Positions 2,367-20,122 of a stretch of DNA of 20,122 bases are shown piece after piece. A model generated the notes under the pieces. The model saw nothing but the letters and a program-made list of their open reading frames with translations, ran no database searches and was not told where the DNA came from. Every line of letters begins with the position of its first letter. Position 1 is the stretch's first letter. Origin of the DNA: a virus. The position numbers and the translations under genes were made by a program. The stretch spans positions 1-20,122 of the IMG/VR virus record IMGVR_UViG_3300034196_000265. One strand, 5' to 3'.

Positions 2367-2375
2367 CACGGTGAC
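2365..2375. promoter_or_regulatory. operator copy 2, GTCACGGTGAC
   Basis: A perfect 11-bp palindrome of the same type as at 2308-2318. It lies between the leftward -35 element and the rightward -35 element, so it can influence both promoters. The GTC...CGGTG...AC layout is reminiscent of the P22 Mnt operator, which from memory centres on GTCCACGGTGGAC. Confidence 0.65.
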
Positions 2376-2379
2376 TCCA

Positions 2380-2407
2380 TTGAAGTATGTCACCGTGCCT
2401 GTATGCT
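2380..2407 (+). promoter_or_regulatory. candidate rightward promoter for the mnt-like gene
   Basis: TTGAAG (2380-2385) and TATGCT (2402-2407) are each 4/6 matches to the sigma-70 elements with 16-base spacing. Transcription would begin near 2414, just before the proposed start codon at 2437 (or 2428). Operator copy 3 lies in the spacer, which fits autorepression. Confidence 0.5.
2389..2399. promoter_or_regulatory. operator copy 3, GTCACCGTGCC
   Basis: Matches GTCACNGTGAC except for one base (C for A at 2398). It starts 24 bp after operator copy 2 and sits between the -35 and -10 elements of the proposed mnt-like promoter. Confidence 0.55.
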
Positions 2408-2436
2408 TTCGTTACTCATATAAGCAAATGAAAGTA

Positions 2437-2739
2437 ATGGCGAAAACGAATATGGCACCAACAGGAAGAGCATCAGATAAATTCATGCTTCGTCTGCCAG
2501 ATGGCATGCGTGAAAAAATTGCAGAGCAGGCCAAGGCCAACGGACGCTCAATGAATGCAGAAATCGTCTATCACCTCCAGAAAGCACTGGACGATAACTC
2601 ACCTTCTCAGGATGTGGTGATCAAGGTTGACCCCAGCATGAAGGATGCTGTCGAGATGTATGCCACGATAGATCCCGACTTCGCGCCAGTCGTCCACGCC
2701 ATGATCCAGTACCAAAAGGCCAAGTCAGGTAAGGGCTGA
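2437..2739 (+). CDS. mnt: Mnt-like ribbon-helix-helix repressor
   Basis: Predicted DNA-binding repressor of the antirepressor operon, like P22 Mnt. With the ATG at 2437 the protein is 100 aa, against 82-83 aa for P22 Mnt. Residues 15-21 (DKFMLRL) form the operator-contacting beta strand, helix A is about 22-34 (DGMREKIAEQAKA), the turn is NGRSMN (35-40), which I recall as identical to Mnt, and helix B runs to about 51. The rest (about 55-100) is probably an oligomerisation part and does not resemble a toxin. The frame is open further upstream (ATG 2428, GTG 2371), but starts before about 2414 would lie inside the proposed promoter. No start has a strong Shine-Dalgarno sequence; GAAAG near 2430-2434 is weak. 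It ends three bases from the stop codon of gene D, tail to tail, with no terminator between. Confidence 0.85.
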   Translation: MAKTNMAPTGRASDKFMLRLPDGMREKIAEQAKANGRSMNAEIVYHLQKALDDNSPSQDVVIKVDPSMKDAVEMYATIDPDFAPVVHAMIQYQKAKSGKG

Positions 2740-8092: not shown

Positions 8093-9526
8093 TTAGAAGA
8101 TCTCCGTGATGAAATCATTGGTCAGATGGCTGCGGAACACGATGTGCTCAGCCGGGTACACAGGGGTGAACGAGAAATCAAACACGATCTTGCCCTGGGC
8201 GATCTGGTCCGGTGTGTTCAGGTCAGGGTCGATCCAGCAGTTGCCACCAAGGATGGCGCCCTTGTTGACCAGGCTGCGCAGGTAGGCGTTAACCCCCTCG
8301 GTCACATCGGTGACGTAGTTCTTGGTGATGCCGCGATCCACCGCCCACAGGTGATTCACCAGAATGGACTCGTTGATCATGTCTGCGGTACGCACCACGC
8401 AGAGGAAGGCCCACTTCTGATCGCTCGACAGGGTGCGGTTACCCCACAAGCGATAGCCATCCTCGCGGATGATGGTGGCGACCTTCTTCTCATTGAGCAG
8501 GTTGGCCCGGCTACTGGTATCGCCCAGGGTGAAATCGATGGGGCGCGCCGTGCCGATGATGCCGTTGATGTTCTGGTTCGACGGTGACCACCAGAATCCT
8601 CTCTCGTTATCGCTCTTTGCGATAAGCCCCGCAACGCAGGGGGATGCCCATTCGGTGACGTTGTTGCCGCCTTCGTCGGTCTTGATGATCTTGGGGTCAA
8701 CCAAAAACACCCGCTTGCTGCCAAAGTCGCCGGCATAGGCGATGGCGGCTGCGTCGGTGGTGTTGGGGCCATCGGCAATGATGACGGCGCGCAGCTTCTC
8801 GGCGATACCTACCAGCTCGGCGACCACGGCGTTGCCTACGGTACCGAAGGATGCGGTTGCGGCTGCGCCAGTGCCACCGCCGCCAGAGAAGGCGACAGTC
8901 GGCGCGGCGGTGTAGCCGCTGCCGGCATCTTCCACGATGACAGAGACCACCTTTCCCGCACTGGTGCCGGTACCGAGTACCGCCTTGGCTTTGGCGCCAG
9001 TGCCAGAGCCACCACCGGAGAGGGCAACTGTCGGGGCGCTGGTGTAGCCGGTGCCCTGAGTGGTCACTGTGATGGCGGTGACGCCACCGGTGACCCGCTT
9101 GTCGGTGAAGCCAGGGGCGATCAGTACCTTCGGCGAGAAGCCAACGGCAGATTTCGCCCCCAGGAAGGCGTGAACACCTTCATAGTTGCCAGTCGTCGCA
9201 TTGACCCCACCCAGGATGTTGGCAAGCGTGGTTGCATCGCTGGAGCCTTTCTCAACCCGCACCACGATGATCACCGCGCCGCACTGATCAAAGATGGAGT
9301 CTATGGCAGGTGGCAGCGTCCCCTCGCCGGTGCCCAGCGTATCCAGGCCAGCCGCTTCACGACGACTGCCCGCGATCAGCACCGGGGTGTTGAGCGGGAA
9401 CTGGGTAACATCTGCATTTGGGGCGGTGCCGATCAGGCCGATGACGCTGGAACGAACGGTGGAGATAGGGCGGGGACCGGAGTCAATATCGATGACCTCG
9501 ATACCATGAAGGAACAGTTCAGACAT
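8093..9526 (-). CDS. FI: tail sheath protein (P2 FI-like) with inserted repeats
   Basis: The contractile sheath of the tail. The first part begins MSELFLHGIEVIDIDSGPRP like the P2 FI family, and the last part carries VNKGAILGGNCWIDPDLN, GKIVFDFSFTPVYPAEHI and NDFITEIF, which are typical of the inter-subunit strands. With the ATG at 9526 the protein is 477 aa; GAGG lies 8 bases upstream, whereas the alternative GTG at 9547 has no good ribosome-binding site. P2 FI is 396 aa. The extra length is a Gly/Thr-rich insertion at about residues 146-231, holding two copies of a GxGYTxAPTV...SGGG unit. The insertion falls between SPKVLIAPGF and VVAELVGIAEKLRAV, which are adjacent in ordinary P2-like sheaths. 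Confidence 0.93.
   Translation of the reverse strand: MSELFLHGIEVIDIDSGPRPISTVRSSVIGLIGTAPNADVTQFPLNTPVLIAGSRREAAGLDTLGTGEGTLPPAIDSIFDQCGAVIIVVRVEKGSSDATTLANILGGVNATTGNYEGVHAFLGAKSAVGFSPKVLIAPGFTDKRVTGGVTAITVTTQGTGYTSAPTVALSGGGSGTGAKAKAVLGTGTSAGKVVSVIVEDAGSGYTAAPTVAFSGGGGTGAAATASFGTVGNAVVAELVGIAEKLRAVIIADGPNTTDAAAIAYAGDFGSKRVFLVDPKIIKTDEGGNNVTEWASPCVAGLIAKSDNERGFWWSPSNQNINGIIGTARPIDFTLGDTSSRANLLNEKKVATIIREDGYRLWGNRTLSSDQKWAFLCVVRTADMINESILVNHLWAVDRGITKNYVTDVTEGVNAYLRSLVNKGAILGGNCWIDPDLNTPDQIAQGKIVFDFSFTPVYPAEHIVFRSHLTNDFITEIF
8834..9091 (-). repeat. two-unit Gly-rich beta-repeat insertion in the sheath gene
   Basis: Encodes sheath residues of about 146-231. Each unit has the pattern xVTxxGxGYTxAPTVxxSGGGxGTGAxAxA. 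The two units differ in DNA sequence, so the repeat is mainly at the protein level. The pattern is known from bacterial and phage surface proteins as a small beta-rich repeat and would sit on the outer face of the sheath subunit. Confidence 0.75.
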
Positions 9527-9550
9527 GTGCTTGGCCTCGATGGACACGGT

Positions 9551-9586
9551 TTAAGATCGTGCTGTCATCATGGCTTTGCGGTGCAT
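9551..9586 (-). CDS. possible 11-aa leader peptide upstream of the sheath gene
   Basis: ATG at 9586 opens an 11-residue frame (MHRKAMMTARS) with AAGAGG (9598-9593) six bases upstream, ending TAA at 9551. It lies about 25 bases before the sheath start, right after the repeated element at 9588-9613. Good ribosome-binding site and spacing are the only evidence; chance is quite possible in such a short frame. Confidence 0.2.
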   Translation of the reverse strand: MHRKAMMTARS

Positions 9587-9587
9587 T

Positions 9588-9613
9588 CCCATCCTCTTGG
9601 GGGATTTCCAGTG
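9588..9613 (-). repeat. repeated SD-bearing element, copy 1
   Basis: This 26-base sequence is identical to 19694-19719 in the same orientation. Its minus-strand core, GGAAATCCCCCAAGAGG (9609-9593), occurs a third time at 15353-15337. It lies in the non-coding leader between the fibre-block terminator and the sheath gene. The AAGAGG end is a Shine-Dalgarno-like sequence followed by ATG. Confidence 0.8.
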
Positions 9614-9627
9614 GTGGCAGCAATAGA

Positions 9628-9649
9628 AAACCCCGCCGGAGCGGGGTTT
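9628..9649 (-). terminator. Rho-independent terminator after the fibre genes
   Basis: AAACCCCGC (9628-9636) pairs with GCGGGGTTT (9641-9649), a 9-bp stem around a CGGA loop. On the minus strand it is followed by a further T, giving TTTT, then CTATT. It lies 10 bases beyond the tail fibre assembly gene and before the sheath gene. It should divide the late region into a head-baseplate-fibre transcript and a sheath-to-D transcript. Confidence 0.85.
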
Positions 9650-9659
9650 GTTGTACTGG

Positions 9660-10271
9660 TTACTGCGGCTTTGCAGGCCAGTTAACTGGGTGGACGCTGC
9701 AATCAATGATGGCCAGCGATGCTCGATAGGTTTTCCACTCCATCAGTTTTGCCTGAACCTGATCGTCAGGGTTTGAGATGATGGCAGGGTCAAGCGCATC
9801 AAGCAGCGCGGAAATCTCGATGCTAGCCTCACCAAGCAAGTTGGTTCTCTGTGATTGTGCCTGCTGAGTCAACCACGCTTGCTCGGCAGTGGCATCCTTA
9901 ACCCATGCGCCAACCGTGGTATTCCACACATCAAACTGTGACTGCGGAACCAACAATGTCAGCTGCTCAGGGAGCATGCCAAGCGCATTGACAACTTCTG
10001 ATTGCCTGGTCTGCTTGTTGTAAGCTACGGTGCCACGCAGATCATCAACCAACTCCCAAGCGCCATGCTGACGAACAATGGCTTTCCCTTGTTCACTCTG
10101 AGGTGGTGGATCAATAAAAGCCCCTGCCGGCATAGATGTACCAACAGAAACCCATACATCCTGAGAATACAGGTACTCACCAGTAGCTTGATTTATGCAA
10201 TGAGCCAACTCCCATCCACTGTCTGAGGCAAAGCCATCCATACCCCAAACAACACGCGGTTCATTCATCAT
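9660..10271 (-). CDS. tail fibre assembly chaperone (Tfa / P2 G-like)
   Basis: A 203-aa protein of the Caudovirales tail fibre assembly family, needed to fold or trimerise the fibre encoded just upstream. The C-terminal part (about 125-203) holds the family features: a Gln/Ala-rich helix (AEQAWLTQQAQSQRTNLLGEA), then QAKLMEWKTYRASLAIID and the proline-rich end VNWPAKPQ. The N-terminal part (1-110) is variable, as is usual where it adapts to its fibre. The start ATGATGA overlaps the fibre stop codon, and the terminator follows directly. Base composition is lower in GC than in the sheath gene, like the fibre gene itself. Confidence 0.88.
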   Translation of the reverse strand: MMNEPRVVWGMDGFASDSGWELAHCINQATGEYLYSQDVWVSVGTSMPAGAFIDPPPQSEQGKAIVRQHGAWELVDDLRGTVAYNKQTRQSEVVNALGMLPEQLTLLVPQSQFDVWNTTVGAWVKDATAEQAWLTQQAQSQRTNLLGEASIEISALLDALDPAIISNPDDQVQAKLMEWKTYRASLAIIDCSVHPVNWPAKPQ

Positions 10272-11398
10272 GCAGCCCTCACTATGTAGTTAAATGAAAT
10301 GTTGCGTGGGCGGTTTTCTACCGCTGTCGGGACAACAGATGCGGCATTGAACGTCACCCGCCCATTATTTTTTAGTGGCGTAGTTGTAACGGAGAAAATA
10401 GAACTTGCTCCACCAATTTGGCTGGCGTATGAGAAAGCGCCAGTGGCTGAGCCAACTGGTTCTCCATTGGTGTTTTCCCCGTGCAAATCGAATGAGGCTG
10501 ATATATTACGGATGGCATCACCTTGAGAGGAAAGCAGTGCCCGAGAAACATCCACACCACGCCCGCTATCCCAGCCACGAATGAACTCAGCGCGAAGGTC
10601 TGGCAGAACTCCGCTTGGGTACGCCAGCGCAAGTTTTGGATAGGTTGCAGGACTGAATGACTGGCCGTTCATCACCAAAAAACCTGAAGGAGGGACAGCT
10701 GTTGGCCATGGTATTGGGGCGCCTACAGGGTAAGCGCTAAACGCAGCCTCGAGCGCCCCCTTTGGAGTGACAGCCTTCTGATCATCATTTCCTGCAATAG
10801 CCTCTGCAACAGATGAAAGAATAACAATGCCAGGTTGCGATAAGGACGCGGAGCGGCGCTCATCAATAAACAAGAGACCTGTTGAGCCAATACTGATCGC
10901 CCCGGTGCTTGACAAATACCACACCTTTCCTGCATTAACGGTTCCGCCCTCAACAGGAACTCTTGCGCCACCAGTAAGTTTCTCTCCGCTATCAGCGTCT
11001 ATAGAACGCGCCCAGCTTTGTGCTGCAACCAGGTATATCCCATTCTGGGCGGCAGTGGTCTGGTCTTTTACCAGTACCCGATCACCCACGGTAAGCACCA
11101 CGCCATCAATGGTCTGGGCACCAGAGAGGGTGATATTCGCCACTGTGGCGGCCCGCACACTCTGCTTGCTGTCCAGTTTCTGCAGCTCACCCTGCACATG
11201 GTCTTTTGATGCTATCCAGCTCGGCGTCAGATTGCCGGAGTTAAGCTGGTCGATCTGCTGTTTCAGGAAGGCGGTGCGGTTTGCCAACCCTTTTGCTTGC
11301 GCGTTGGCGATGCCATTGGGACCGCCAAGCACCGGGTCAGTGGTTTCGATTTGATAGATGCCAGTATCATAGCTGGGGGTTTCCGTTACATTTGCCAT
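10268..11398 (-). CDS. H: tail fibre protein (P2 H-like position, collar-type)
   Basis: A 376-aa fibre, probably the main receptor-binding protein. Residues 1-50 (MANVTETPSYDTGIYQIETT, then ANRTAFLKQQID) are a baseplate-binding N-terminus like those of P2-type fibres. Residues about 80-175 form a common fibre module (TIDGVVLTVGDRVLVKDQTT, AAQNGIYLV). Residues about 225-300 are a tail collar-like domain (GAPIPWPTAVPPSGFLVMNG, LPDLRAEFIRGWDSGRGVD). The end, ENRPRNISFNYIVRAA, is typical of fibre tips. It is shorter than P2 H (669 aa). It overlaps the I stop codon and its chaperone gene follows with an ATGA overlap. Lower GC suggests module exchange. Confidence 0.9.
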   Translation of the reverse strand: MANVTETPSYDTGIYQIETTDPVLGGPNGIANAQAKGLANRTAFLKQQIDQLNSGNLTPSWIASKDHVQGELQKLDSKQSVRAATVANITLSGAQTIDGVVLTVGDRVLVKDQTTAAQNGIYLVAAQSWARSIDADSGEKLTGGARVPVEGGTVNAGKVWYLSSTGAISIGSTGLLFIDERRSASLSQPGIVILSSVAEAIAGNDDQKAVTPKGALEAAFSAYPVGAPIPWPTAVPPSGFLVMNGQSFSPATYPKLALAYPSGVLPDLRAEFIRGWDSGRGVDVSRALLSSQGDAIRNISASFDLHGENTNGEPVGSATGAFSYASQIGGASSIFSVTTTPLKNNGRVTFNAASVVPTAVENRPRNISFNYIVRAA

Positions 11399-11964
11399 TA
11401 CGCAGTCCCGTAGTTATAGGTGCCGTCATAACCAAGTGCCCCGTCATACAGGTTGGCAGCCTCGGTGAAAATAAGTGATACCAGGTGGCAGCGAGCTGGT
11501 GCTGTGTATTTCAGAATGCGGCGCACCTGCTCGGCCTGCTGGTTGGTAATTGGGCGATCTAGGATGACTCGGTACTTTGCCCACTCATCAGGCGAGCCGA
11601 AGGTTGAAAGGCCGTTATATTTGAGGACGCCGTTATAGGTGGCGCCGTAAATACCCTCGATGATCTGCGCCGTGCCATAACCGGCGTTGGCCAGCGCACG
11701 CCGCACCGACCATACCGACCCCTTGCGGCGCTGCACCAGTACCGCCTCGCGGATGGTCTGCCGCTTGGCCTCATCTGACCAATCCGGTGACCACTCATCA
11801 CACCCGAACGCCCACGCCAGCCACGGCAGCAGATCGGCGGGGCAATTGTCAGGGCTCCATATCTCGCGGGTGCGGATAGGCACATCAGACAGGCGGGAAA
11901 CCGTCAGCGCCAGCGCAACCTCTTGGGCGCTGGCACTGGATGGCAGCAGAGATCCGCTACTCAC
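11398..11964 (-). CDS. I: baseplate protein gpI (P2 I-like)
   Basis: A 188-aa member of the P2 gpI family (176 aa in P2), which links the tail fibre to the baseplate wedge. The segments LLPWLAWAFGCDEWSPDWSD (about 46-65), REAVLVQRRKGSVWSVRRAL and the late TAPARCHLVSLIF are family hallmarks. The GTG at 11964 is inside the J stop region (GTGAGTAG), so translation is coupled to J. It ends at the first base of the next fibre gene. Confidence 0.92.
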   Translation of the reverse strand: MSSGSLLPSSASAQEVALALTVSRLSDVPIRTREIWSPDNCPADLLPWLAWAFGCDEWSPDWSDEAKRQTIREAVLVQRRKGSVWSVRRALANAGYGTAQIIEGIYGATYNGVLKYNGLSTFGSPDEWAKYRVILDRPITNQQAEQVRRILKYTAPARCHLVSLIFTEAANLYDGALGYDGTYNYGTA

Positions 11965-12856
11965 GGATCACCCCGGCAGTGATATTGATTGCGGTGCAAT
12001 GCGGCGCCTGATTCCACTGAATAGGTATATCCGCAGCCGGAGAGGAAAGGTTGACCTTCTGCACCCCAGGCCTGCGCAAGGCGGCATAGACACCGTCTAG
12101 GGTGATATCCATCCCGAGCTTGTGCATCTCGGCAGCATAGGCTTGTGCGCTTGAGGTAGCAGCTTCCAGCGCTTGCTGTTGCCCCACCCCAGGGAAGAAG
12201 TCGAGTACGGCACCGATTTGGAAATTAACCACATCGGCGGCAGATACCACCACCGTATCGCATAGCGGCCGCACAATCTCTGAGGTCGTTGCTGCAATCA
12301 CGGCATTCAGCGTCGCCTGCGGCGGCACCCCGAATCCTGTACGAGATAGCACCGCGATATTGACGCGGCCGGGAACCAGGCTATCAACCCCCACATCAAG
12401 CACGTCACCGGACGCACTGATGGCGTGATAGACATAACTACCGATCGAACCTGCAGTGGTATACCCCTCGAACGACAGCAGGATGCGCAGGCGGTAATCA
12501 TCATCAGCCTCCATCACATCCTTGGTCGGCGGGATGGCTGCAGGATCGCCGGGGATAATAACCAGCCTAGGCACATTACTGTTGGCGCCAACCTGATCCA
12601 GATCAGCGCCATTGGCAAACGCCAGCATTACCGCCTTGGCAGACTCATTGGCCCGCTGGCGCAGCAACACCTCGCGATAAGCGGCCACCTCGAGGATCTT
12701 GAATGCAGGGTCACTCTCCACCAGCGCTGTGAACACCGGATCGCGACTCTGCAGATCGGCCAACATATCGGCAAAGATGGTTTCGAAGTCTAGCTGCTCC
12801 ACCACCACAGGCGGCGGAAGTTGCGACAGGTTGACGGCAGTGAATGCGCTAGTCAT
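11957..12856 (-). CDS. J: baseplate assembly protein gpJ (P2 J-like)
   Basis: A 299-aa baseplate wedge protein of the P2 gpJ / Mu gp47 / T4 gp6 family (P2 J is 302 aa). Clear segments are LSQLPPPVVVEQLDFETIF near the start, ILEVAAYREVLLRQRANESA, MLAFANGADLDQVGAN, the DDDYRLRILLSFEGYTTAGS stretch and SGDVLDVGV. The ATG at 12856 begins the expected MTSAFTAVNLSQ; a TTG at 12868 is possible but adds four residues unlike the family. It follows a 101-aa gene by two bases and overlaps I by eight bases. Confidence 0.93.
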   Translation of the reverse strand: MTSAFTAVNLSQLPPPVVVEQLDFETIFADMLADLQSRDPVFTALVESDPAFKILEVAAYREVLLRQRANESAKAVMLAFANGADLDQVGANSNVPRLVIIPGDPAAIPPTKDVMEADDDYRLRILLSFEGYTTAGSIGSYVYHAISASGDVLDVGVDSLVPGRVNIAVLSRTGFGVPPQATLNAVIAATTSEIVRPLCDTVVVSAADVVNFQIGAVLDFFPGVGQQQALEAATSSAQAYAAEMHKLGMDITLDGVYAALRRPGVQKVNLSSPAADIPIQWNQAPHCTAINITAGVIRE

Positions 12857-12858
12857 CG

Positions 12859-13164
12859 TTATGCCCAAACCCGTGCCGGCGTAACCGGATAAGTCCGCAG
12901 ATCAGCCAGCGCATCAGCAACATCCTGTGATGCAGTCCGCACATTGACGTGATAGCCGGTAACTTCGGCCATCACCGGCACCTCCTCGCCATCCACCAGC
13001 GATGTTTCCCCGGTAGGCTGGTAGATGGTGCCGATCACATCAAGCGAGGCCTCAGGGTGATAGAGTGCCCCACTGTCAGAATCTTGGCTAAAGCCCGCCG
13101 TCTTGAGGGCCTGCGTCATGGCCGACTTGCTGCCAGCTTTGAGATAGAGATCAATCATGGTCAT
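12859..13164 (-). CDS. conserved-looking 101-aa protein between the inserted fibre and J
   Basis: Function not known. The ATG at 13164 has AAGGA 8 bases upstream and gives MTMIDLYLKAGSKSAMTQAL, a start resembling small proteins found near phage tail and baseplate genes. The remainder alternates short hydrophobic strands (SLDVIGTIYQPTG, VPVMAEVTGYHVNVRT) with a helical end (ASQDVADALADL), suggesting a compact alpha/beta fold. There is no signal peptide or membrane segment. It lies 78 bases after the inserted fibre gene and two bases before J, so it is co-transcribed and may be a fibre partner or tail accessory protein. Confidence 0.7.
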   Translation of the reverse strand: MTMIDLYLKAGSKSAMTQALKTAGFSQDSDSGALYHPEASLDVIGTIYQPTGETSLVDGEEVPVMAEVTGYHVNVRTASQDVADALADLRTYPVTPARVWA

Positions 13165-13242
13165 GGGTTTTGTCCTTCCAGAAATGCCAGCAGCTGTTCG
13201 TACCTGTGGAGACTGGGACAAGCCCTGTGCAGTAGTGACTGG

Positions 13243-14868
13243 TCATCGCAGGGCCTTAATTTGGGCATCAGTTAGCTCAAAGTGCCAAATCCTCAGGTCA
13301 CGCAGGTGCCCATTTAAGTGGCGGGTAGAAGCAGCTTTTTGACAGCCCAAATACATTGCATCTTCAAAGCCTGGACTAGTTCCTTGTGAACCGTCCTTTC
13401 TGCCAGACGGCGTTACGGTACTCAAACCAGCAGGCGTTTTAATTCCAGTAAAAACCTGGCCGCTTTTGAAATTTGCCACGACAGAACCAGCGTTTGTCAA
13501 ACCGCCGAAATTATTTGCATTAATTTCTGAACTGATTGAACCAGGCCCTATTGACGCATCCCAAGCCCTTGCGCTGACCCCAGCGGCTCTAACGCTAAAT
13601 ATCCTCGGCGCAGGGTTCGGGGCCGAAATAGATGCCCAATTTACCGACACAGTGACAGCGACCGTGGCTATTTCAGCCCCGCCATTTATAGCTGGTATAA
13701 ACGGGTAGTCCGCCGCGCGGGTGGCTGCGGCCCCGGTTGTATGGATATATGAAGACGGAAACGCCGCCGCTTCAAGCTGCATAAATGCGCACAATACGGC
13801 CTCGGAAGGTTGCCCCGGCTCCGCGAGGCTGTTTTTAATATAAAATTGATTTTGGATGGTGACATCGGCGGGCGGCGTACCTGTAACCCATATAAGCCAC
13901 CATCCCCCGCCCTTATAAATAGCCCCGCCATAGCACTGAGTGAAATTTCCGCCGGAATACGTGGTGGTTTGCCCTGTAACTAAATCGACAACAACTCGCG
14001 CTGCGTTTACTAGTCCGCTTTGGTCCCGCAACCACAACTCAACACTTCCTGCGCCGTCGTCTTTTATTAACGCGCAGCCACAATAGGCCACGCCGGCTAG
14101 TGCGGCTATGTTACGGTTTATAACTGCGTGAGTTACTGCCGGGGTTGTATCGCGGGAAAAACGCCCTACGGTAAAATTGAATCTAGCATCTGTAACCGCT
14201 GAATAATTTACGTTGTATGGCATTTGGTCCGTTCGATACGTACCATCAAACCAGGAAAACTTGTGCAAGTTTGTAGATGGTCCTTCGACCAACAACCCCT
14301 TTGCTTCATAGCGGGGCTCATTGATAGCTGCCTGCCGCAACACACCAGACTTATCGAAATACCAGGCAGAGGAGGCACGCGCGAAACTCACGTAGCGGCC
14401 TACAACATCATCCCCCACCTTCACCTCGCGGCCCTGGCCTGCAAACATGAGCAGCGAATCACTGAGTGGGATCCATACATCCGGAAATGGCAAAGCAGCC
14501 AAGCCGATGGCATCTGCAACGGTGGATAAACCGGTAATCTGCGCTGCGCGATCTGCTTCTGACTGAGCCCGATCGGCTTGGGTCTTGGCCTTGTTATATT
14601 CTGTGGTGGCCAGCGTCACCGAATTGGCGGCGGCGTTGGCCTGAGTGGTGGAGCGGTCTGCTTCATCGCGTGAGCGATTGGCCTCCGCTGCCGCCGTGGC
14701 GGTGGTTTCATCAAGCCGCTCATCAACGCGGGCTGCCAGCGTGGGCTGATTTCCGTAACCAGGCACATCAACTACCTGATTGCTGGCGCCAGTGATGATC
14801 TTCTCAAAGGCTTCTGTCGCCTTGTTCAGGCGGGCAACGGCGACATCCCCGGCGGCAGTGGTGGTCAT
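13243..14868 (-). CDS. additional tail fibre-like protein inserted between W and J
   Basis: A 541-aa structural protein, probably a fibre or receptor-binding part. Residues about 40-115 form an Ala/Asp/Arg/Thr-rich coiled coil (EANRSRDEADRSTTQANAAA), as in fibre shafts. Residues about 155-200 hold FARASSAWYFDKSGVLR and GLLVEGPSTNLHKFSWF, a module common in phage fibre and tail proteins. The rest (about 200-540) is Gly/Thr/Ala-rich and beta-like, with a C-terminus (RHLNGHLRDLRIWHFELTDA) like the last strands of a LamG/concanavalin-type domain. The start has GAGG 8 bases upstream. P2 has no gene here (W is followed by J). The distal two thirds look lower in GC than W and J, fitting acquired receptor-binding sequence. 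Confidence 0.75.
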   Translation of the reverse strand: MTTTAAGDVAVARLNKATEAFEKIITGASNQVVDVPGYGNQPTLAARVDERLDETTATAAAEANRSRDEADRSTTQANAAANSVTLATTEYNKAKTQADRAQSEADRAAQITGLSTVADAIGLAALPFPDVWIPLSDSLLMFAGQGREVKVGDDVVGRYVSFARASSAWYFDKSGVLRQAAINEPRYEAKGLLVEGPSTNLHKFSWFDGTYRTDQMPYNVNYSAVTDARFNFTVGRFSRDTTPAVTHAVINRNIAALAGVAYCGCALIKDDGAGSVELWLRDQSGLVNAARVVVDLVTGQTTTYSGGNFTQCYGGAIYKGGGWWLIWVTGTPPADVTIQNQFYIKNSLAEPGQPSEAVLCAFMQLEAAAFPSSYIHTTGAAATRAADYPFIPAINGGAEIATVAVTVSVNWASISAPNPAPRIFSVRAAGVSARAWDASIGPGSISSEINANNFGGLTNAGSVVANFKSGQVFTGIKTPAGLSTVTPSGRKDGSQGTSPGFEDAMYLGCQKAASTRHLNGHLRDLRIWHFELTDAQIKALR

Positions 14869-14878
14869 AGATTAAACC

Positions 14879-15328
14879 TCAACTTGCGAATCCAAGCAGG
14901 CAGCAGCGTTCGACCTGCGCTGCCCACGATGTAAAGTTCCAGACGTTCGCCTCTGGCTGGGCAAGCTTGTCGATCACGATCCCGTCGATGGTCACCTTCT
15001 GGCCGTCTGGTAGATACTCGCCATACAGGTCCAGCTCGATATAACCAGGGGATGCGGCAACGGCTTGCACCTGCTCAAGGCTGAAACGGGGCTCCCACTG
15101 CTGCAGCGCCTCCGCCGTGGCGGCGTAGATGTCGATCAGCGTGGCGCGATTCATGGGGGCATCAATCAGACTGGGGATCCGGCTGCCATAGGCGCGGCGC
15201 ATCACCCGGGTGCCGATACGGGTACCCAATATGTCGGTGATGCTTTGTCGCAGGTGCTGGATCCCGCTCAGGCGCTTGCCTGTGAGTGAATTGGTGCCGT
15301 TCATGGTTGCATTGTTGCCAGCCACCAC
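14879..15328 (-). CDS. W: baseplate wedge protein gpW (gp25 family)
   Basis: A wedge protein of the P2 W / T4 gp25 family, which starts sheath assembly at the baseplate. It shows GTRVMRRAYGS, then a DAPMNR segment, and the EPR motif (in QQWEPRFSL) that marks the gp25 fold. The start is uncertain: GTG 15328 (149 aa) has AAGAGG at good spacing, GTG 15337 has the same AAGAGG too close, and the ATG at 15304 matches where P2 W begins in alignment but lacks a ribosome-binding site. The frame is open further upstream into V. It overlaps no neighbour with the start chosen here. Confidence 0.88.
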   Translation of the reverse strand: MVAGNNATMNGTNSLTGKRLSGIQHLRQSITDILGTRIGTRVMRRAYGSRIPSLIDAPMNRATLIDIYAATAEALQQWEPRFSLEQVQAVAASPGYIELDLYGEYLPDGQKVTIDGIVIDKLAQPEANVWNFTSWAAQVERCCLLGFAS

Positions 15329-15336
15329 GTTCAGCA

Positions 15337-15353
15337 CCTCTTGGGGGATTTCC
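15337..15353 (-). repeat. repeated SD-bearing element, copy 2 (17 bases)
   Basis: GGAAATCCCCCAAGAGG on the minus strand, immediately after the V stop codon and directly upstream of the W start. It is identical to the core of copies at 9593-9609 and 19699-19715. Here its AAGAGG is the likely ribosome-binding site of W. Confidence 0.75.
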
Positions 15354-15354
15354 G

Positions 15355-15918
15355 TCAGATAGGGGCGTCGGTGTTCTGTCCGCCGCGCTGAATGCCGCTG
15401 TGAGCGTGATCTGAACCGATATTCTTGCCGTTGTGAGTAACCTGCCCGCCTTGAATATCAAGGCCGCTGGACGTGATGACGAATGTCACGCCGCCAACAG
15501 CAAGTGCAATCTTGCCGCGATCGGCAGTGATGGTGGTGGTATCGATGGTGGCATTCAGTGTGTGGCTGGCGCTGTCATAGCTGATGCTGGTGCCATCAGG
15601 GTAGAGCTCTTTATCCAGACTGGCGCTGCTGGCTGGTGCCGGATTGGTAGCCGAGTACAGGCTGCAGACGATGATGGCTTGCCCAAGATCGCCATATGGC
15701 GACAGGATCAGCACCTGCTCACCAATGCTGAGCGGGCTCCACGTCTTGGTGTTACCTGCCCGCTTTGCGCCGAACGGCAGCCAATCAGAGTCGAAGCCGG
15801 AGACTGCCACCTTTACCCTGGGTGCATCCGGATCGGTAAAGTCAGTTTCTGCGACCTCCCCCACCCTGATCAGGTTTGCAATCTGGCGCGACAACTCGCC
15901 CAGGCTGTAATCGCTCAT
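15355..15918 (-). CDS. V: baseplate spike protein gpV (P2 V-like)
   Basis: The membrane-piercing spike at the tail tip, 187 aa (P2 V is 211 aa). The N-terminal OB-fold part (about 15-90) includes GEVAETDFTDPDAPRVKV, WLPFGAKRAG and WSPLSIGEQVLILSPYGDL. A beta-helix region follows (about 95-165, SISYDSASHTLNATIDTTTI). The end has HAH at 171-173, the HxH motif that binds iron at the apex of P2-type spikes. The ATG at 15918 overlaps the previous stop codon as ATGA. It lies in the canonical place before W. Confidence 0.93.
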   Translation of the reverse strand: MSDYSLGELSRQIANLIRVGEVAETDFTDPDAPRVKVAVSGFDSDWLPFGAKRAGNTKTWSPLSIGEQVLILSPYGDLGQAIIVCSLYSATNPAPASSASLDKELYPDGTSISYDSASHTLNATIDTTTITADRGKIALAVGGVTFVITSSGLDIQGGQVTHNGKNIGSDHAHSGIQRGGQNTDAPI

Positions 15919-16592
15919 GGGGTGATCTCCGTGATGTCATCACCAGGCTGGCAGTCGCCAAAGCCGAGCTGCCCACCGATACAGGCCACATCACCGGCCC
16001 ACTCTTCAAAGTCGAAATAGACAGCGGTGCCGTCAATGTCTGCTCTGACATCTTCGCGCACAAAGATGCGGCCAGGGGTAACGCCTTCATCGGTCCAGAC
16101 GGTTTCGCCAAGGTGCAGTCGCTGCTGCCACTCCACCCGCCATACCTCGAACTGGGAGAGATCCTGATCCTGACGGCGGCCCATCACCGAGAAATCATCC
16201 TGATAGGCTCCGATCACCATCGCCTCACCGGTTGGCAACTTCTTGGCAGGGTCGGCAGGGTTGGTCCAGCGGCGCATCCGCAGCCACGCCTCGAGAGACG
16301 CAGCCAGCATCCTGATGGAGAGCTTGGCCTTGGCCATACTGCCAGCCTGTGGCCGAAACCCGATCACCAACTCAGCCTCAAACTTTGCCAGCACAGCCAG
16401 CTGCTCGGTGCCAGGGTCGTTATCGGGATCAGCCTCCAGCTCGGTGAGCTCCAGCAGGCATGCCGGGGTGACCAGAGATTTGCGATCTTCCCGGTAGAAT
16501 TCGACTGTTTTCAGGTCGGGGAAAGCGGCCTTGATATCGGCCACGATGGCATCATGCACCACGGAGAGATCGATATTGGTATTGGCGTTCAT
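15915..16592 (-). CDS. putative tail terminator (Mu gp37-like)
   Basis: A 225-aa protein whose place between the lambda Z-like gene and V suggests a tail terminator or head-tail completion role. The segments SVVHDAIVADIKAAFPDLKT at the start, LELTELEADPDNDPGTEQLA, FEAELVIGFRP and FEVWRVEWQQRLHLGETVW resemble the DUF1834/Mu gp37-type family, which I recognise only by pattern. It contains no membrane segment. It is coupled on both sides by ATGA overlaps (Z-like stop and V start). Confidence 0.6.
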   Translation of the reverse strand: MNANTNIDLSVVHDAIVADIKAAFPDLKTVEFYREDRKSLVTPACLLELTELEADPDNDPGTEQLAVLAKFEAELVIGFRPQAGSMAKAKLSIRMLAASLEAWLRMRRWTNPADPAKKLPTGEAMVIGAYQDDFSVMGRRQDQDLSQFEVWRVEWQQRLHLGETVWTDEGVTPGRIFVREDVRADIDGTAVYFDFEEWAGDVACIGGQLGFGDCQPGDDITEITP

Positions 16593-17137
16593 GAGGCACC
16601 TATTTGATATTTAACCCTGGCGCGCAAGTCACGCTCAAAATGCCCCCAAAATACGGTCAGCACCTCGTCAAATACCTCGCTTTCAACGTAATCGCTGGCA
16701 TCTTCTTCTATGGCAACCGTCTGTTCTTCGATCTTGAGGCGCGCCTTACCTTTGCGCTTAAAAATGGAGTGGTGGCCGTTAGGCATCTTCCCGACAAAGC
16801 CATCCTTGAATAAGTAATTCTGCTTTGACGCCCCCCATGATTCTTTTTTTGCCCTTCCTTTCAGACTGCTGGCAGATACGGGGTTAAGGCCAAACCAGAG
16901 ATCAGCTTTAACCTCGTTGTTCTTTATTCGCATCTGGGTTTGCTTGACCCGGCTGCGAAGGTTTGAGGCGGCGCCAAGCATCAGCTCTCTTTTCAGGTCT
17001 TTGACTGATGATTTTCGAAGAGAGGTTAGCGTTCTGTTCAACGCGCGCTTAAGCGAGAGCACCACCTGCTTACTGGTAGCACCCAGGTCTTCGGTGACCT
17101 GAAGCAATTGAGCAATATCAACGTCAAAGTGCAGCAT
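16589..17137 (-). CDS. lambda gpZ-like minor tail / tail completion protein
   Basis: A 182-aa protein resembling the Minor_tail_Z family (lambda Z, 192 aa), which acts at the head-proximal end of the tail. The pattern is a helical N-terminus with LSLKRALNRTLTSLRKSSVK, then basic stretches (NLRSRVKQTQMRI), the family segment ADLWFGLNPVSASSLKGRA, and a helical C-terminus with DEVLTVFWGHFERDLRARV. It overlaps the head-tail joining gene by 14 bases and the next gene by four. Confidence 0.75.
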   Translation of the reverse strand: MLHFDVDIAQLLQVTEDLGATSKQVVLSLKRALNRTLTSLRKSSVKDLKRELMLGAASNLRSRVKQTQMRIKNNEVKADLWFGLNPVSASSLKGRAKKESWGASKQNYLFKDGFVGKMPNGHHSIFKRKGKARLKIEEQTVAIEEDASDYVESEVFDEVLTVFWGHFERDLRARVKYQIGAS

Positions 17138-17465
17138 GCTGCGGCCCCTGCCGTACCATCGTCACCAGCGCCCAGCCGGTGCCATCTGCCTGCGGGCTGG
17201 TCATCACATCAAACCGCTCTCCGGCCACCACCACCTCATCACCCCGGCTGATGCCAACCATGTCCACCTCTTTGCCACTGATGCGTGGCTCGCTGGTGTC
17301 TGCCTCATACTCGCCAAGCTGGGCGTTGAGATAGGGATCATCGAAGATCACTGAAATGGTTCTGGTGCTGCCATCCCCAAAATGAACAACGGCGGGTGTT
17401 GCAAACCCGCCGCTACTATCCAATTGCAGGAAGGCGTCCAGGTTCTCCCAGGACGGCCCGCGCAT
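17124..17465 (-). CDS. head-tail joining protein (lambda FII-like)
   Basis: A 113-aa protein resembling the lambda gpFII attachment family (117 aa), which forms the connector face that receives the tail. Visible features are a compact beta-rich pattern, VVHFGDGSTRTISVIFDDPY (about 26-45), ISRGDEVVVAGERFDVMTSP, and the C-terminal TGWALVTMVRQGPQ, which resembles the family ending. It starts within the previous stop codon (TGATG) and overlaps the Z-like gene. The family assignment is by pattern and position. Confidence 0.65.
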   Translation of the reverse strand: MRGPSWENLDAFLQLDSSGGFATPAVVHFGDGSTRTISVIFDDPYLNAQLGEYEADTSEPRISGKEVDMVGISRGDEVVVAGERFDVMTSPQADGTGWALVTMVRQGPQHAAL

Positions 17466-17821
17466 CAGGTGTACTGCTTACGGCCGACCAGCGACACCCC
17501 GCGCACCACGGCGTTGGCGCCGCCGGCCAGGGTATCCACCACCCGCACAAACTTTTTCAGCGCATCCGCATTCATGGTGATCGATGGGGCCGCCGCAGTG
17601 GTGCCAACCGCAGGGAATGCGCCATTTGGCACATCAACCCAGTTGGTCGAACCATCATCGCTGTGCTGCAGCTTGACGGCGTTGGTGCCAGCGTTGGTCG
17701 GGCCAGAGTTCATAATGAGCTGGCAGATGCCTTGAAAATCACTGACGTTCACCGCCGCGCCGTTACCGGATGCAGCGATAGAGGCCGATACGGCCAGTAC
17801 GATTCGAGTTACACCGCGCAT
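17465..17821 (-). CDS. small putative virion structural protein
   Basis: A 118-aa protein with no confident family. It has a beta-rich, Ala/Gly/Asn-rich composition, with VKLQHSDDGSTNWVDVPNGA (about 49-68) and FVRVVDTLAG (about 91-100), a layout seen in small phage head or decoration proteins. The start RGVTRIVLAVSASIAASG is moderately hydrophobic but looks like a beta strand, not a signal peptide. Its ATG abuts the preceding stop codon (TAAATG) and the next gene starts in its stop codon, so it belongs to the head operon. A decoration or connector role is inferred from position only. Confidence 0.55.
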   Translation of the reverse strand: MRGVTRIVLAVSASIAASGNGAAVNVSDFQGICQLIMNSGPTNAGTNAVKLQHSDDGSTNWVDVPNGAFPAVGTTAAAPSITMNADALKKFVRVVDTLAGGANAVVRGVSLVGRKQYT

Positions 17822-18154
17822 TTACTCGCCCTCTTTCCGATCGGCGTCATCGTCAGCACCAGCAGGCGCCGCTTCGATAACATCGATGATCTGATCCTTG
17901 GTCATGCCGCTGGCCACTTCAACACCGAGCTTCTTGGCGCACTCAAGCAAGGCAGGCTTGGTCCAGCTGGAATAATCCGTGCCGGCATGCTCTTCTTGCT
18001 GCTCAACACCATCTTCTGCGGTCGCCAGTACCGCCTTGCCGCGATGGAGGAAGTTCTTGGCTTCCGCCTCGCTCACTTCCACCAGCGAACCCGGCTTGTG
18101 GATCTGACCATCGATGGCGATCGCACAGGTCAGTTTCAATACATAGCTTTTCAT
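17822..18154 (-). CDS. HeH/LEM-like small head protein
   Basis: A 110-aa protein. The N-terminal part (MKSYVLKLTCAIAIDGQI, then KPGSLVEVSEAEAKNFLHRG) is a small beta/alpha domain found in proteins encoded next to phage capsid genes. The C-terminal part (about 66-100, SSWTKPALLECAKKLGVEVA then TKDQIIDVIEAA) has the helix-extended-loop-helix pattern of HeH/LEM/SAP-like domains, which can bind nucleic acid or protein. The ATG at 18154 is chosen because GAGGG lies about 8 bases upstream; a longer frame from 18202 would begin inside the hairpin at 18177-18199. A role in head assembly or DNA packaging is inferred from context. Confidence 0.65.
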   Translation of the reverse strand: MKSYVLKLTCAIAIDGQIHKPGSLVEVSEAEAKNFLHRGKAVLATAEDGVEQQEEHAGTDYSSWTKPALLECAKKLGVEVASGMTKDQIIDVIEAAPAGADDDADRKEGE

Positions 18155-18176
18155 CCGGTCACCCTCTTGGATGGAA

Positions 18177-18199
18177 GGTGGCCGCCACCGGCGGCCACC
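18177..18199. other. strong hairpin directly after the capsid gene
   Basis: GGTGGCCGCC (18177-18186) pairs perfectly with GGCGGCCACC (18190-18199), a 10-bp GC-rich stem with a three-base loop. It lies seven bases beyond the capsid stop codon. It is not followed by a T-run, so it is likelier to stabilise capsid mRNA or limit read-through than to be a full terminator. Confidence 0.7.
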
Positions 18200-18205
18200 C
18201 ATTAA

Positions 18206-20122
18206 TTACGCGACGTTTTGGCTGCCCCAGCAGAACGACTCGACCCGGCGCAGGACAAAATCAACGTCCTGGAACACTACCAGACGCAGACCGCCGGACT
18301 TGCTCAGGCTGTACGGGTCAACAGTCAGATCCAGACCGCCCCACATTCCGATCAGCATGTCGGCGAAGTTGCCGAAGAACACATCGCCGGAGGCGATCTG
18401 GTTGCTGATCTCGGTGTTGTAGCCGTTGATAGTGTTGCCCGGCTCCCAGATGGTGGATTCGGTACCGGTGCCGAACTTCGCGGTGGTCTTACAGTGACCA
18501 CGGAAGGTAGCGTTACCGATGTAACCCATCTGGCCGATATCGGCGTTATCGGCAGCAATGGCCGACTCCATGTCAACCAACTCTTTGAAGGTTGGTTGCA
18601 GGGCGGTGAAATCAACGGCGTTGATCCCTGTGTAGTTCTTGATGCCGCGCGGCTGGTTGCCAGCGCCGCTGCCGTAGTAACCGGCAAAGTCGATCGCCTG
18701 CGCCATGGCATTTACCAGGTCGCGGCGCACAATACCTTCTGCATCCATGCTGGACTGCATCAGCAGACGGCGAGTGATATCGGTATAGGCAGCCAAGGTC
18801 TTGGGAGACAGCTCGAGCTGACCGATGGTCGGAGTGCCTTCTTGCGCATCTTCACCTTCACCCAGCCAGTAGGCAGTCGCGCCACCGGTTTGACGGGGGA
18901 TGTCAACGTTACCGACCAGCCCGCCCATGGTGGTGGCCAGGCGCATGATGGTGGTGCGATTGCGCAGCATCTCGATAAAGCTGCCACCCATAAAGGTGGT
19001 ATCAACCAGGTTCTGGCCGGACTGCGCACCGTTCGGGGTATTGGCTGCGCCGCCAGCATTGAAGGCGCGGGAGTTCAGTACGTCCTGCGGGATCAGGATG
19101 CCTTGGGCGGTCTTGCCGAGTTGACGCTGGGCAGTCTCGGAGCACTCGAGTTCGAATGCGGCTGCTTCGCGGTCAGCCCGGGTCGCATTGGGTTGCAGGG
19201 CGCGCACAGCACGGAAGATGCTGTAGTTGCGCACTTCCTGATCGGTCAGGCCGATGTCGGCGCTTTGCATCTCGGAAAGCGGAGTGCCGGAGCGTTGGGA
19301 AGGCTGGGCTGGCTGGCCTGCCGGCTTCTTGGCGCCACGGGTGTTGATGTGGTCAAGCACCGCAGCGCGGAATGCGTCTACGGTATCGCCTGCGGCAACG
19401 GCTTTTTCGGCCAGATCGCGGCAGTCGTATTGGGTGCCCATCTGCAGAATAGATGCGGTGCGCTCGCGCTCGGCTTTTGCGGCGCCAGTTTGGGCGTTGC
19501 GAACATCGGCACCCGCCTCTTCCAGCACTTCGAGCACTTCGAGGATCTTGCCCTCGGCATCAACCATGGCACGGACCAGGTTGCCCTTGCCGTCACGCAG
19601 GATTTTTTCGTTCATCGTTCTGACTTCCTCAGTAGTTGAGTTTTTAGCGGTCGTGCCACGCTCAATGGTGCCAGCATCGCCTGTCGGCTGTTCCCCATCC
19701 TCTTGGGGGATTTCCAGTGAGCGGCCAACGCCAACGTCATCATCTGCGGCGACAGAAACAAGGCTCACTTCATAGGGAGTCCAGGACACGCGGAACACAT
19801 CGACGCCGTCACGTTCTTCAACAAGGCGCAGGCCATTGACGAAGTAGCCAACCGATACCTTGGTAACAATGTCATCAGCTACATCCTGAAAAAGCTTTTC
19901 ACCGTCCTCTGAGCGGCTGAAACGGACCTTACAGCGGCCTTTCTTGTCTTGGTCGATGCGGGCGGTACCCTGCTCGATTACCCCACGCTGATCGTCCCAG
20001 TCGTGCATCCAGAGCAGCGGGGCCTTGTTGTTAAGGCGGGTCAGGTCGCATTCGCCAGCTTCGTGACCAAGGATCTCGATACCAAACCAGCGCTCAACAC
20101 CTTCTGTTTCGCTGCTGAAAGA
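18206..20122 (-). CDS. fused prohead protease and HK97-fold major capsid protein (5' partial)
   Basis: The reading frame is open to the window edge; 638 residues are visible and the true start is outside. Residues 1-130 (window numbering) are the end of an HK97-type prohead protease: ERWFGIEILGHEAGECDLTR, LLWMHDWDD with the candidate catalytic His 40, and VSWTPYEVSLVSVAADDD with candidate Ser 120 or 123. A linker (about 130-169) follows, then a scaffold-like delta region with coiled coil (about 170-260, KILEVLEVLEEAGADVRNAQ). The capsid fold (about 320-638) shows NRTTIMRLATTMGGLVGNVD, LGEGEDAQEGTPTIGQLELS (E-loop region) and FAGYYGSGAGNQPRGIKNY. An in-frame ATG at 19615 (residue 170) has GAGGAAG 8 bases upstream and could give a separate 469-aa capsid precursor. 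Confidence 0.88.
   Translation of the reverse strand, partial: SFSSETEGVERWFGIEILGHEAGECDLTRLNNKAPLLWMHDWDDQRGVIEQGTARIDQDKKGRCKVRFSRSEDGEKLFQDVADDIVTKVSVGYFVNGLRLVEERDGVDVFRVSWTPYEVSLVSVAADDDVGVGRSLEIPQEDGEQPTGDAGTIERGTTAKNSTTEEVRTMNEKILRDGKGNLVRAMVDAEGKILEVLEVLEEAGADVRNAQTGAAKAERERTASILQMGTQYDCRDLAEKAVAAGDTVDAFRAAVLDHINTRGAKKPAGQPAQPSQRSGTPLSEMQSADIGLTDQEVRNYSIFRAVRALQPNATRADREAAAFELECSETAQRQLGKTAQGILIPQDVLNSRAFNAGGAANTPNGAQSGQNLVDTTFMGGSFIEMLRNRTTIMRLATTMGGLVGNVDIPRQTGGATAYWLGEGEDAQEGTPTIGQLELSPKTLAAYTDITRRLLMQSSMDAEGIVRRDLVNAMAQAIDFAGYYGSGAGNQPRGIKNYTGINAVDFTALQPTFKELVDMESAIAADNADIGQMGYIGNATFRGHCKTTAKFGTGTESTIWEPGNTINGYNTEISNQIASGDVFFGNFADMLIGMWGGLDLTVDPYSLSKSGGLRLVVFQDVDFVLRRVESFCWGSQNVA
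19615..19630 (-). promoter_or_regulatory. internal ribosome-binding site and start in the capsid fusion
   Basis: GAGGAAG (19630-19624) lies 8 bases upstream of an in-frame ATG (19615-19613), at the boundary between protease linker and capsid delta region. This is stronger than most start sites in the window. It suggests that a 469-aa capsid precursor is made independently of the protease fusion, which would supply many capsid subunits per protease. Confidence 0.6.
19694..19719 (-). repeat. repeated SD-bearing element, copy 3
   Basis: 26 bases identical to 9588-9613, including the 17-base core at 19699-19715. Here it is translated, in the linker of the protease-capsid fusion (SLEIPQEDG). It lies about 80 bases upstream of the internal capsid start. 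Confidence 0.8.

Follow-up and report, generated by a model that had tools for sequence, protein, structure and literature searches.

The window, that is, the whole stretch of 20,122 nucleotides from viral record IMGVR_UViG_3300034196_000265, carries the tail sheath, baseplate W and fused protease-capsid genes on its minus strand. On this strand of the structural genes the 17-base core GGAAATCCCCCAAGAGG is found in exactly three exact copies. The features considered below are the following, the promoters and their -10 hexamers being predictions.

9588..9613, minus strand: element before the tail sheath gene (core 9593-9609), exact match, 26 bases the same as in the capsid copy
15337..15353, minus strand: element between V and W (core 15337-15353), exact match, directly past the V stop
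19694..19719, minus strand: element in the protease-capsid linker (core 19699-19715), reading EIPQE there
9630..9642, minus strand: terminator-like hairpin just upstream of the predicted sheath promoter, from a consensus scan with no excess over shuffles
9567..9572, minus strand: predicted -10 hexamer CATGAT of the sheath promoter, 20 bases past the core; predicted start about 9560
8093..9547, minus strand: tail sheath gene (PHROG 23, E 1.1e-120), from GTG 9547 or, as in relatives, ATG 9526
15311..15316, minus strand: predicted -10 hexamer AACAAT of the W promoter; predicted start about 15304
14879..15304, minus strand: baseplate W gene from its likely ATG 15304 (open reading frame from 15337: PHROG 43, E 1.2e-39)
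19673..19678, minus strand: predicted -10 hexamer GATGCT of the capsid promoter; predicted start about 19666
18206..19615, minus strand: capsid-only reading frame from the internal ATG 19615, with a Shine-Dalgarno-like GAGG ahead (whole open reading frame: PHROG 617, E 5.1e-177)

The initial annotation had described three copies in one orientation, before the sheath gene, at W and in the protease-capsid linker, the first and third being identical over 26 bases. Number, orientation and places were all confirmed, and alignment of 9588-9613 with 19694-19719 gave the 26-base identity. The sheath copy lies between the terminator-like hairpin and the gene. As had been argued, the repeat is not a chance occurrence: shuffled windows held on average 0.08 matches to the core even at up to three mismatches, and none of 100 had three. 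No 17-mer reached three copies in 100 dinucleotide shuffles; 99 of them had no repeated 17-mer, and the remaining one had a single one.

A survey of the core in other genomes, which had been suggested as a check, found the element at the same places in a close relative and in named phages of Pseudomonas, Burkholderia, Achromobacter, Xanthomonas and enterobacteria. Five sites are shared: the 3′ end of terL, the protease-capsid linker, the positions before baseplate W and before the sheath, and the 3′ end of the gene for a PHROG 836 late activator, upstream of the holin. Five copies each are present in Persinger, Mano, Mica and PPpW-3, and also in FoX5, M29, Murka, MQ-4 and the relative G004, the activator-gene copies of MQ-4 and G004 having one or two bases changed; ep3 and ECO1230-10 have four copies and a variant in the activator gene. 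The sheath-site copy was seen in Persinger, Mano, Mica, PPpW-3, Arya, ECOO78, MQ-4, FoX5, KA2-1, ep3 and G004. In the activator genes of Arya and KA2-1 there are no more than questionable remnants, with 6 and 4 mismatches of 17 respectively, each with the hexamer still present, and no remnant was found in that of Alexa; KA2-1 also has a changed base in one of its four other copies. In the partial record of ET-SD-TH no threefold 12-mer was found, and contig G009 has one exact core with no PHROG 836 match and no repeat. Other phages show the same arrangement with other words, for example TGACAAACCCCAAGAAG. Stretches matching the core numbered 51 in genome contigs against 30 expected in uniform random sequence; L061 was looked at in context and the others were judged by hexamer count.

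Each window copy can be read GAA ATC CCC CAA GAG, and a conserved EIPQE peptide had been named as a possible cause of all of them. The coding copies that were read (terL, capsid, activator) do use this frame, in which the W copies of the window and G004 are also open, the window one in the W frame. But a stop divides the window sheath copy from the sheath frame, the frame of the W copy differs among phages, and other phages have other words. A peptide is refuted as the common cause because the sheath copies are non-coding, and we consider this explanation next to impossible.

The conserved partner of the element is a hexamer at a fixed distance. In 33 IMG/VR contigs, nAnnnT begins exactly 20 bases past the core in 96 of 99 copies (33/33 in activator genes, 63/66 elsewhere), against background means of 0.96/33 and 2.16/66 at offsets outside 18-22; the contigs are related, so that these counts are not independent. 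The three copies lacking it belong to L169 (two) and L180 (one). The named set of six phages and the window has the hexamer at this offset in 30 of 32 copies, the two misses being W copies with a spacer one base longer; L124 (Persinger) and L130 (G004) are in both sets. Among exact 17-mers from genome contigs, taken as a control, 4/52 have it, one of these four being a true relative. The contigs came from a locus listing of 90 rows, of which 15 duplicated a locus or contig and 11 were dropped as apparent near-duplicates (L187, L188, L190, L192, L195-L201). Of the 64 loci scanned, 13 had less than 4 kb downstream, 6 had no repeat, 12 reached only 15/18 and 33 were kept. Of the 51 with enough downstream sequence, 18 thus lacked a repeat of at least 16/18, and eight of these 18 gave only 14-15/18 matches in a hexamer-conditioned scan. 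That scan was replaced by an unconditioned one for the final counts, with the register set by a profile of ten typed versions; the Alexa version was placed with the hexamer in view.

The A and T of nAnnnT resemble -11A and -7T of the sigma-70 -10 box. Strong conservation is confined to the element and the hexamer, the spacer being nearly flat, and the consensus at the would-be -35 position is AGGAAC, not TTGACA. If the hexamer is taken as -12 to -7 of predicted starts, the core spans -49 to -33 with its centre at -41. A sigma-70 scan of window positions 9000-20122 picked out none of the three element copies; its single hit lay elsewhere.

The initial annotation had read the AAGAGG end of the core as a Shine-Dalgarno sequence at W, possibly also at the sheath, and had suggested a translational control site. 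AAGAGG does end the core, the GTG at 15337 chosen for W by the ORF finder touches the element, and a short open reading frame follows the element ahead of the sheath in the window. Comparison of relatives, however, favours the in-frame ATG 15304, 32 bases past the core, and AAGAGG is probably not the W Shine-Dalgarno sequence; the sheath GTG and ATG lie 45 and 66 bases past the core. The core-to-ATG distance at W is 32, 33 or 34 bases among phages, and the gap from hexamer to ATG is 6 or 7 bases in 12 of 13 rows by a pattern script, which missed FoX5 (6 by eye). The preferred ATG agrees with the annotation in Mica, Arya and ECOO78, while W is annotated 9-15 bases farther upstream in three records (Mano, PPpW-3, Persinger). 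Other copies are intragenic, at the ends of terL and the activator gene and in the capsid reading frame. The proposal of a control site ahead of structural genes stands, but its assignment to translation does not, since the element has a -10-like box at fixed spacing and covaries with an activator (below); a translational role is highly improbable.

At W the predicted transcription start falls on the likely ATG 15304, which would make the W mRNA leaderless. Downstream of the capsid hexamer, an in-frame ATG with a Shine-Dalgarno-like word is found 36-57 bases past the hexamer in 10 of 12 rows of named or window type; in FoX5 the ATG at 51 has no such word, and in MQ-4 the sole start listed was a GTG at 96. 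These 12 rows were relied on in place of the script's 36/44 capsid-start rows, which include some terL-site rows. Ahead of the sheath copy, a G+C hairpin with a T-run is present in the named phages compared, in G004 and in L009, and absent in L001 and L061.

The spelling of the element is each phage's own and near-identical across its own sites, with 32 versions among 42 phages. The terL- and capsid-site copies, told apart by position, differ within a genome by 0.41 per 18 bases, whereas same-site copies differ between genomes by 4.9-5.0 per 18 bases; in 27 of 27 cases a phage's own other copy was at least as close as the nearest relative's same-site copy. No dyad symmetry was found in the 32 versions. 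The geometry of the Mor site (two 5-bp inverted repeats with a 6-bp spacer) was not found either, the best having 3/5 pairs, equalled each time by at least a third of shuffles.

All 31 activators of alignment A5, and those of 6/6 named phages, match the PHROG 836 profile, and 16/31 match Pfam Mor (PF08765) at E up to 0.1, the best at 6.4e-8. The activator of the window phage lies outside the 20-kb contig and was inferred from G004, which has the same core; the G004 protein (L130), the nearest to the window phage, gave no Mor row. Its AlphaFold model has a mean pLDDT of 87.2. Foldseek gave no match in the PDB at E up to 0.001, and in BFVD only the Mano homologue (E 1.2e-10). The HTH region aligned with Mu C 9l0x (Z 6.1, rmsd 3.3, 49 aligned) and Mor 9l0y (Z 5.5, rmsd 2.5, 44 aligned), scoring level with unrelated HTHs, in VIA-align rows that cover mainly residues 87-139 and barely sample the N-terminal domain. 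Searched against PDB sequences, the activator profiles hit chiefly generic HTH proteins, with weak scores. A PDB sequence match to 8vd6 'CAP repeat' (E 1.7e-16 and 6.6e-15) had its best stretch in the HTH.

Across 39 phages, bases 1-6 of the element correlate with the recognition helix of the activator (r 0.46; partial Mantel r 0.46, p 2e-4, given the N-terminal domain) but not with the N-terminal domain (r 0.07, p 0.25), and their covariation in sliding windows peaks at the helix. A helix Asn and GAAA at bases 2-5 occur together in 18 phages, Asn alone in 0, GAAA alone in 3 and neither in 18. Bases 7-18 correlate with the N-terminal domain, not the helix (r up to 0.55 around Mano residues 71-85 and near 0.5 around 19-27), so that much of the site is unexplained by the helix; base 16/residue 73 and base 13/residue 75 are among the top covarying pairs. 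Covariation with residues 121-124 was set aside as coding overlap: the activator-gene copy encodes these residues, and the sliding-window peak past residue 121 is partly of this origin.

The element had also been likened to a seam at which modules recombine, in the manner proposed for lambdoid linkers. It does lie mostly near gene boundaries, and G004, which keeps the W copy, is unrelated to the window upstream of it as far as the element. A seam predicts neither the fixed 20-base spacing of nAnnnT, nor the in-step, phage-specific spelling, nor the covariation with the helix, and copies lie inside terL and the capsid reading frame. As the main function it is refuted and keeps hardly any probability, though occasional exchange at the repeats is possible.

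The best explanation, at a probability of about 0.85, is that each phage's late activator recognises the element at about five parallel late promoters. This activator would be the PHROG 836 protein, a distant relative of Mu Mor/C. It would occupy the DNA from about 49 to 32 bases before the start, where a -35 box would otherwise lie, and would recruit the sigma-70 RNA polymerase of the host to a weak -10 box, nAnAAT, 20 bases beyond the element. From some five promoters in one direction, late transcription would begin anew at lysis and portal/capsid, within the protease-capsid reading frame, and at W and the sheath. The internal one would yield a capsid-only mRNA and extra capsid, that at W a leaderless mRNA, and that at the sheath would restart transcription past the terminator.

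It is also conceivable, though unlikely, that the element is a promoter site read by another phage or host factor, or a repressor operator, with the helix covariation of PHROG 836 inherited. Binding of the activator is deduced from sequence, bases 7-18 track its general divergence, and an A. finlandensis genome has the sheath copy but gave no PHROG 836 match. Against this, bases 1-6 track the helix and not the N-terminal domain of one and the same protein, the element lies close to the position of the Mor site, and AGGAAC occupies the would-be -35.

Late activators with several targets are known from other contractile-tailed phages. P2 Ogr and P4 Delta are zinc-binding activators whose site, centred near -55, has a dyad; they too serve several late promoters, but the protein family here is different. 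At the Mu middle promoter Pm, a 16-bp Mor site centred at -43.5 takes the place of the -35 (PMC4390567). The present element similarly appears to pair an activator site in the -35 place with a recognisable -10, its centre being about -41 from predicted starts, and the activator, like Mor, is a small phage-coded HTH protein. Unlike the Mor site it has no dyad that was found, and in place of the single middle promoter of Mu about five promoters are predicted, several within coding sequence and one in the activator gene. Mu C is one phage activator for several late promoters (lys, I, P, mom), lysis included (PMC4461284). One activator for several late promoters including lysis is likewise proposed here, with another site sequence whose spelling, unlike that of Mu, varies by phage in step with the recognition helix.

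More tentatively, a single non-palindromic contact may divide the site in two, bases 1-6 falling to the helix and the remainder to a portion of the N-terminal domain; the site itself would then be directional. The group would in that case offer 32 or more naturally occurring spellings with their matching activators and a readable helix-to-base code, together with an operator in the activator gene, a promoter inside the protease-capsid reading frame and a leaderless W mRNA.

Among the papers listed by searches of PMC, none was recognisable as describing these elements. A passage of a 2025 paper (PMC11990801) describes Jilinvirus isolates as not well characterised. The proposed scheme offers a testable plan of late transcription for a widespread group of small contractile-tailed phages, comprising Jilinvirus, Foxunavirus, Hiroshimavirus, Manovirus, Micavirus, Harrisonburgvirus and relatives. 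A fused protease-capsid gene could in this way yield more capsid than protease, and the scheme also points to a leaderless mRNA for a structural gene. The many natural pairs of activator and site would be a source for a recognition code and for orthogonal switches.

The initial annotation had described three copies of the core GGAAATCCCCCAAGAGG, the first and third identical over 26 bases, as a repeat very unlikely to arise by chance. This was borne out, and a 17-mer present three times was seen in 0 of 100 shuffled windows. The copies are:

9593-9609, minus strand, core copy before the sheath gene
15337-15353, minus strand, core copy before the baseplate W gene
19699-19715, minus strand, core copy in the protease-capsid linker

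An exact scan of IMG/VR detected the core in 11 stretches on 10 contigs. On the 35-kb contig 3300043413_000144, from the close relative G004, it occurs exactly at four places, with one changed base at a fifth.

Positions of the element in G004
3' end of the activator gene
3' end of terL
protease-capsid linker
before W
before the sheath gene

Genome contigs gave 51 matches against about 30 expected in uniform random sequence; among them, the Aeromonas finlandensis match belongs to the sheath site of this phage group. Contig G009 carries a single core, and neither a repeat nor a PHROG 836 match was found there. At locus L063 the same 17-mer is followed by CACAAT at the right spacing, and on Bordetella pseudohinzii plasmid NZ_CP016441.1 (L066:15001) it precedes a hypothetical gene; both could be chance matches.

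A conserved peptide, EIPQE, encoded by the core, had been named as an alternative that could explain all copies. The EIPQE frame is used by the coding copies examined, and by the W copies of the window and G004 relative to W. The peptide is ruled out as the common cause on two grounds: in the window, a stop keeps the sheath copy out of the sheath frame, and the core stands 32, 33 or 34 bases from the W start depending on the phage.

In named relatives the element stands at the same places in other words.

Spelling of the element in named phages
Persinger: GGAAATCCCACAAGAGG; five places
Mica: GGAAATCCCACGGGAGG; five places
PPpW-3: GGCAAACCCACAAGAGG; five places, the fifth copy with one change
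Mano: GGAAAA, a variable base, then CCGCAAGAGG; five places
Arya: TGACACCCCGCACGAAG; four places
ECOO78, ep3: TGACAAACCCCAAGAAG; first base changed at the sheath, variant in the activator gene
FoX5, M29, Murka: GGAAATTCCGGACATGG; five places
MQ-4, KA2-1: words of their own
Alexa (Acinetobacter phage): another word, three copies, with CATAAT, TATAAT and TAAAAT 20 bases on

Only doubtful remnants are seen in the activator genes of Arya and KA2-1, and no copy was found in that of Alexa. Within a genome, the terL- and capsid-site copies differ on average at 0.41 of 18 bases (27 genomes) and are identical in 18 of the 27; same-site copies of different genomes differ at 4.9-5.0 of 18. In all 27, a copy is matched by its counterpart in the same genome no less closely than by the same-site copy of the nearest relative. 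No repeat scoring at least 16/18 was seen in 18 of 51 contigs with enough room.

In a sigma-70 -10 box the second base, A, and the sixth, T, are the key ones. In the window and six named phages, base 22 past the core is A, and base 26 is T, each in 30 of 32 copies; in the two that deviate, both W copies (Arya and ECOO78), the hexamer lies one base further on. A hexamer-independent test was carried out on 33 contigs found via the activator, with the register set by the element profile. The hexamer nAnnnT was present at exactly offset 20 in 33/33 activator-gene copies (background mean 0.96) and 63/66 other copies (background mean 2.16), backgrounds being averages over offsets outside 18-22; these counts, like the preceding ones, are not independent, owing to relatedness among the sequences and to the presence of Persinger and G004 in both sets. 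The largest other peak, a weaker one, lies at offset 31 in the non-activator copies (26/66). Strong conservation in the profile is confined to bases 1-19 and 39-43; the stretch between these two blocks shows little. With the hexamer taken as -12 to -7, the core would span -49 to -33; the consensus at the would-be -35 box is AGGAAC.

The activator gene, which carries one of the copies, encodes a PHROG 836 late transcriptional activator in 6/6 named phages and 31/31 aligned proteins, 16 of which match Pfam Mor at E up to 0.1. For the window phage we infer the activator from G004, since the window stops short of terL and the activator. Such an arrangement appears to function in the manner of a Mor/C promoter. 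Unlike a Mor site, the element has no dyad that could be found, and it was not classed as one.

Element spelling and activator change together. Among 39 phages with activators less than 95% identical, bases 1-6 correlated with the recognition helix (r 0.46; given the N-terminal domain 0.46, p 2e-4). With the N-terminal domain itself they showed no such correlation (r 0.07, p 0.25). Bases 7-18 correlated with the N-terminal domain (r 0.58); their value for the helix given that domain was 0.06. In a sliding window along the activator the correlation peaked at the recognition helix; windows past residue 121, which contain residues encoded by the activator-gene element copy, are best discounted. 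In 18 phages a helix Asn is paired with GAAA at bases 2-5; none has the Asn without GAAA, and three (L144, L165, L204) have GAAA without the Asn. By eye, VKRH, VKRY and VSRH helices pair with TGACA, RETVNA with GCAGA (once ACAGA) and SASQVRL with GCCTA.

At L120 (G006), 9200-10154 on the minus strand, two tandem activator-like stretches lie inside one 349-aa open frame, and a diverged element copy with 3 mismatches retains the -10 hexamer. A further copy with hexamer lies upstream of the activator at L175:690, L179:744, L135:530, L137:530 and L172:2008; in the two of the five inspected (L175, L179) it precedes, by eye, a small VRR-NUC-nuclease-like ORF standing ahead of a primase-like gene. 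The sheath-site element is kept in A. finlandensis (L061) and contigs L001, L008 and L011, in none of which a PHROG 836 match was found; other copies in the L061 genome (up to 3 mismatches) were not in excess over control. These sheath elements are possibly remnants or helper-dependent.

No earlier description of the elements was found in the PMC literature searched. Beside the end of the window's tail module lie, by eye, a short Arc-type-repressor-like protein (2371-2739, plus strand) and a P22-type-antirepressor-like protein (1090-2049, minus strand).

Promoter roles at W, sheath and capsid are predictions from spacing. Between hexamer and W ATG lie 6 or 7 bases in 13 rows, of which FoX5 was read by eye and the other 12 by script. 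The W mRNA would therefore begin at the start codon or one base before, and may be leaderless. In the window (15304-15316) the predicted transcription start is the likely W start codon; in the 12 other rows the two are no more than one base apart. Against a leaderless W, the Mano, PPpW-3 and Persinger records start W 9-15 bases further upstream; those of Mica, Arya and ECOO78 use the same ATG as here. In G004, the 268 bases from the V stop to the W element (L005:1339-1606) do not resemble the window; starting W from an ATG in this stretch would carry the gene through the element.

A terminator-like hairpin precedes the sheath copy in G004, in the named phages compared there and in the window itself, and a promoter at this site would restart transcription after the hairpin. 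Of 12 phages, named or window-type, 10 have downstream of the capsid copy an ATG that is in frame and accompanied by a Shine-Dalgarno-like word; in the window it is ATG 19615. A promoter at the capsid site could thus yield capsid without protease.
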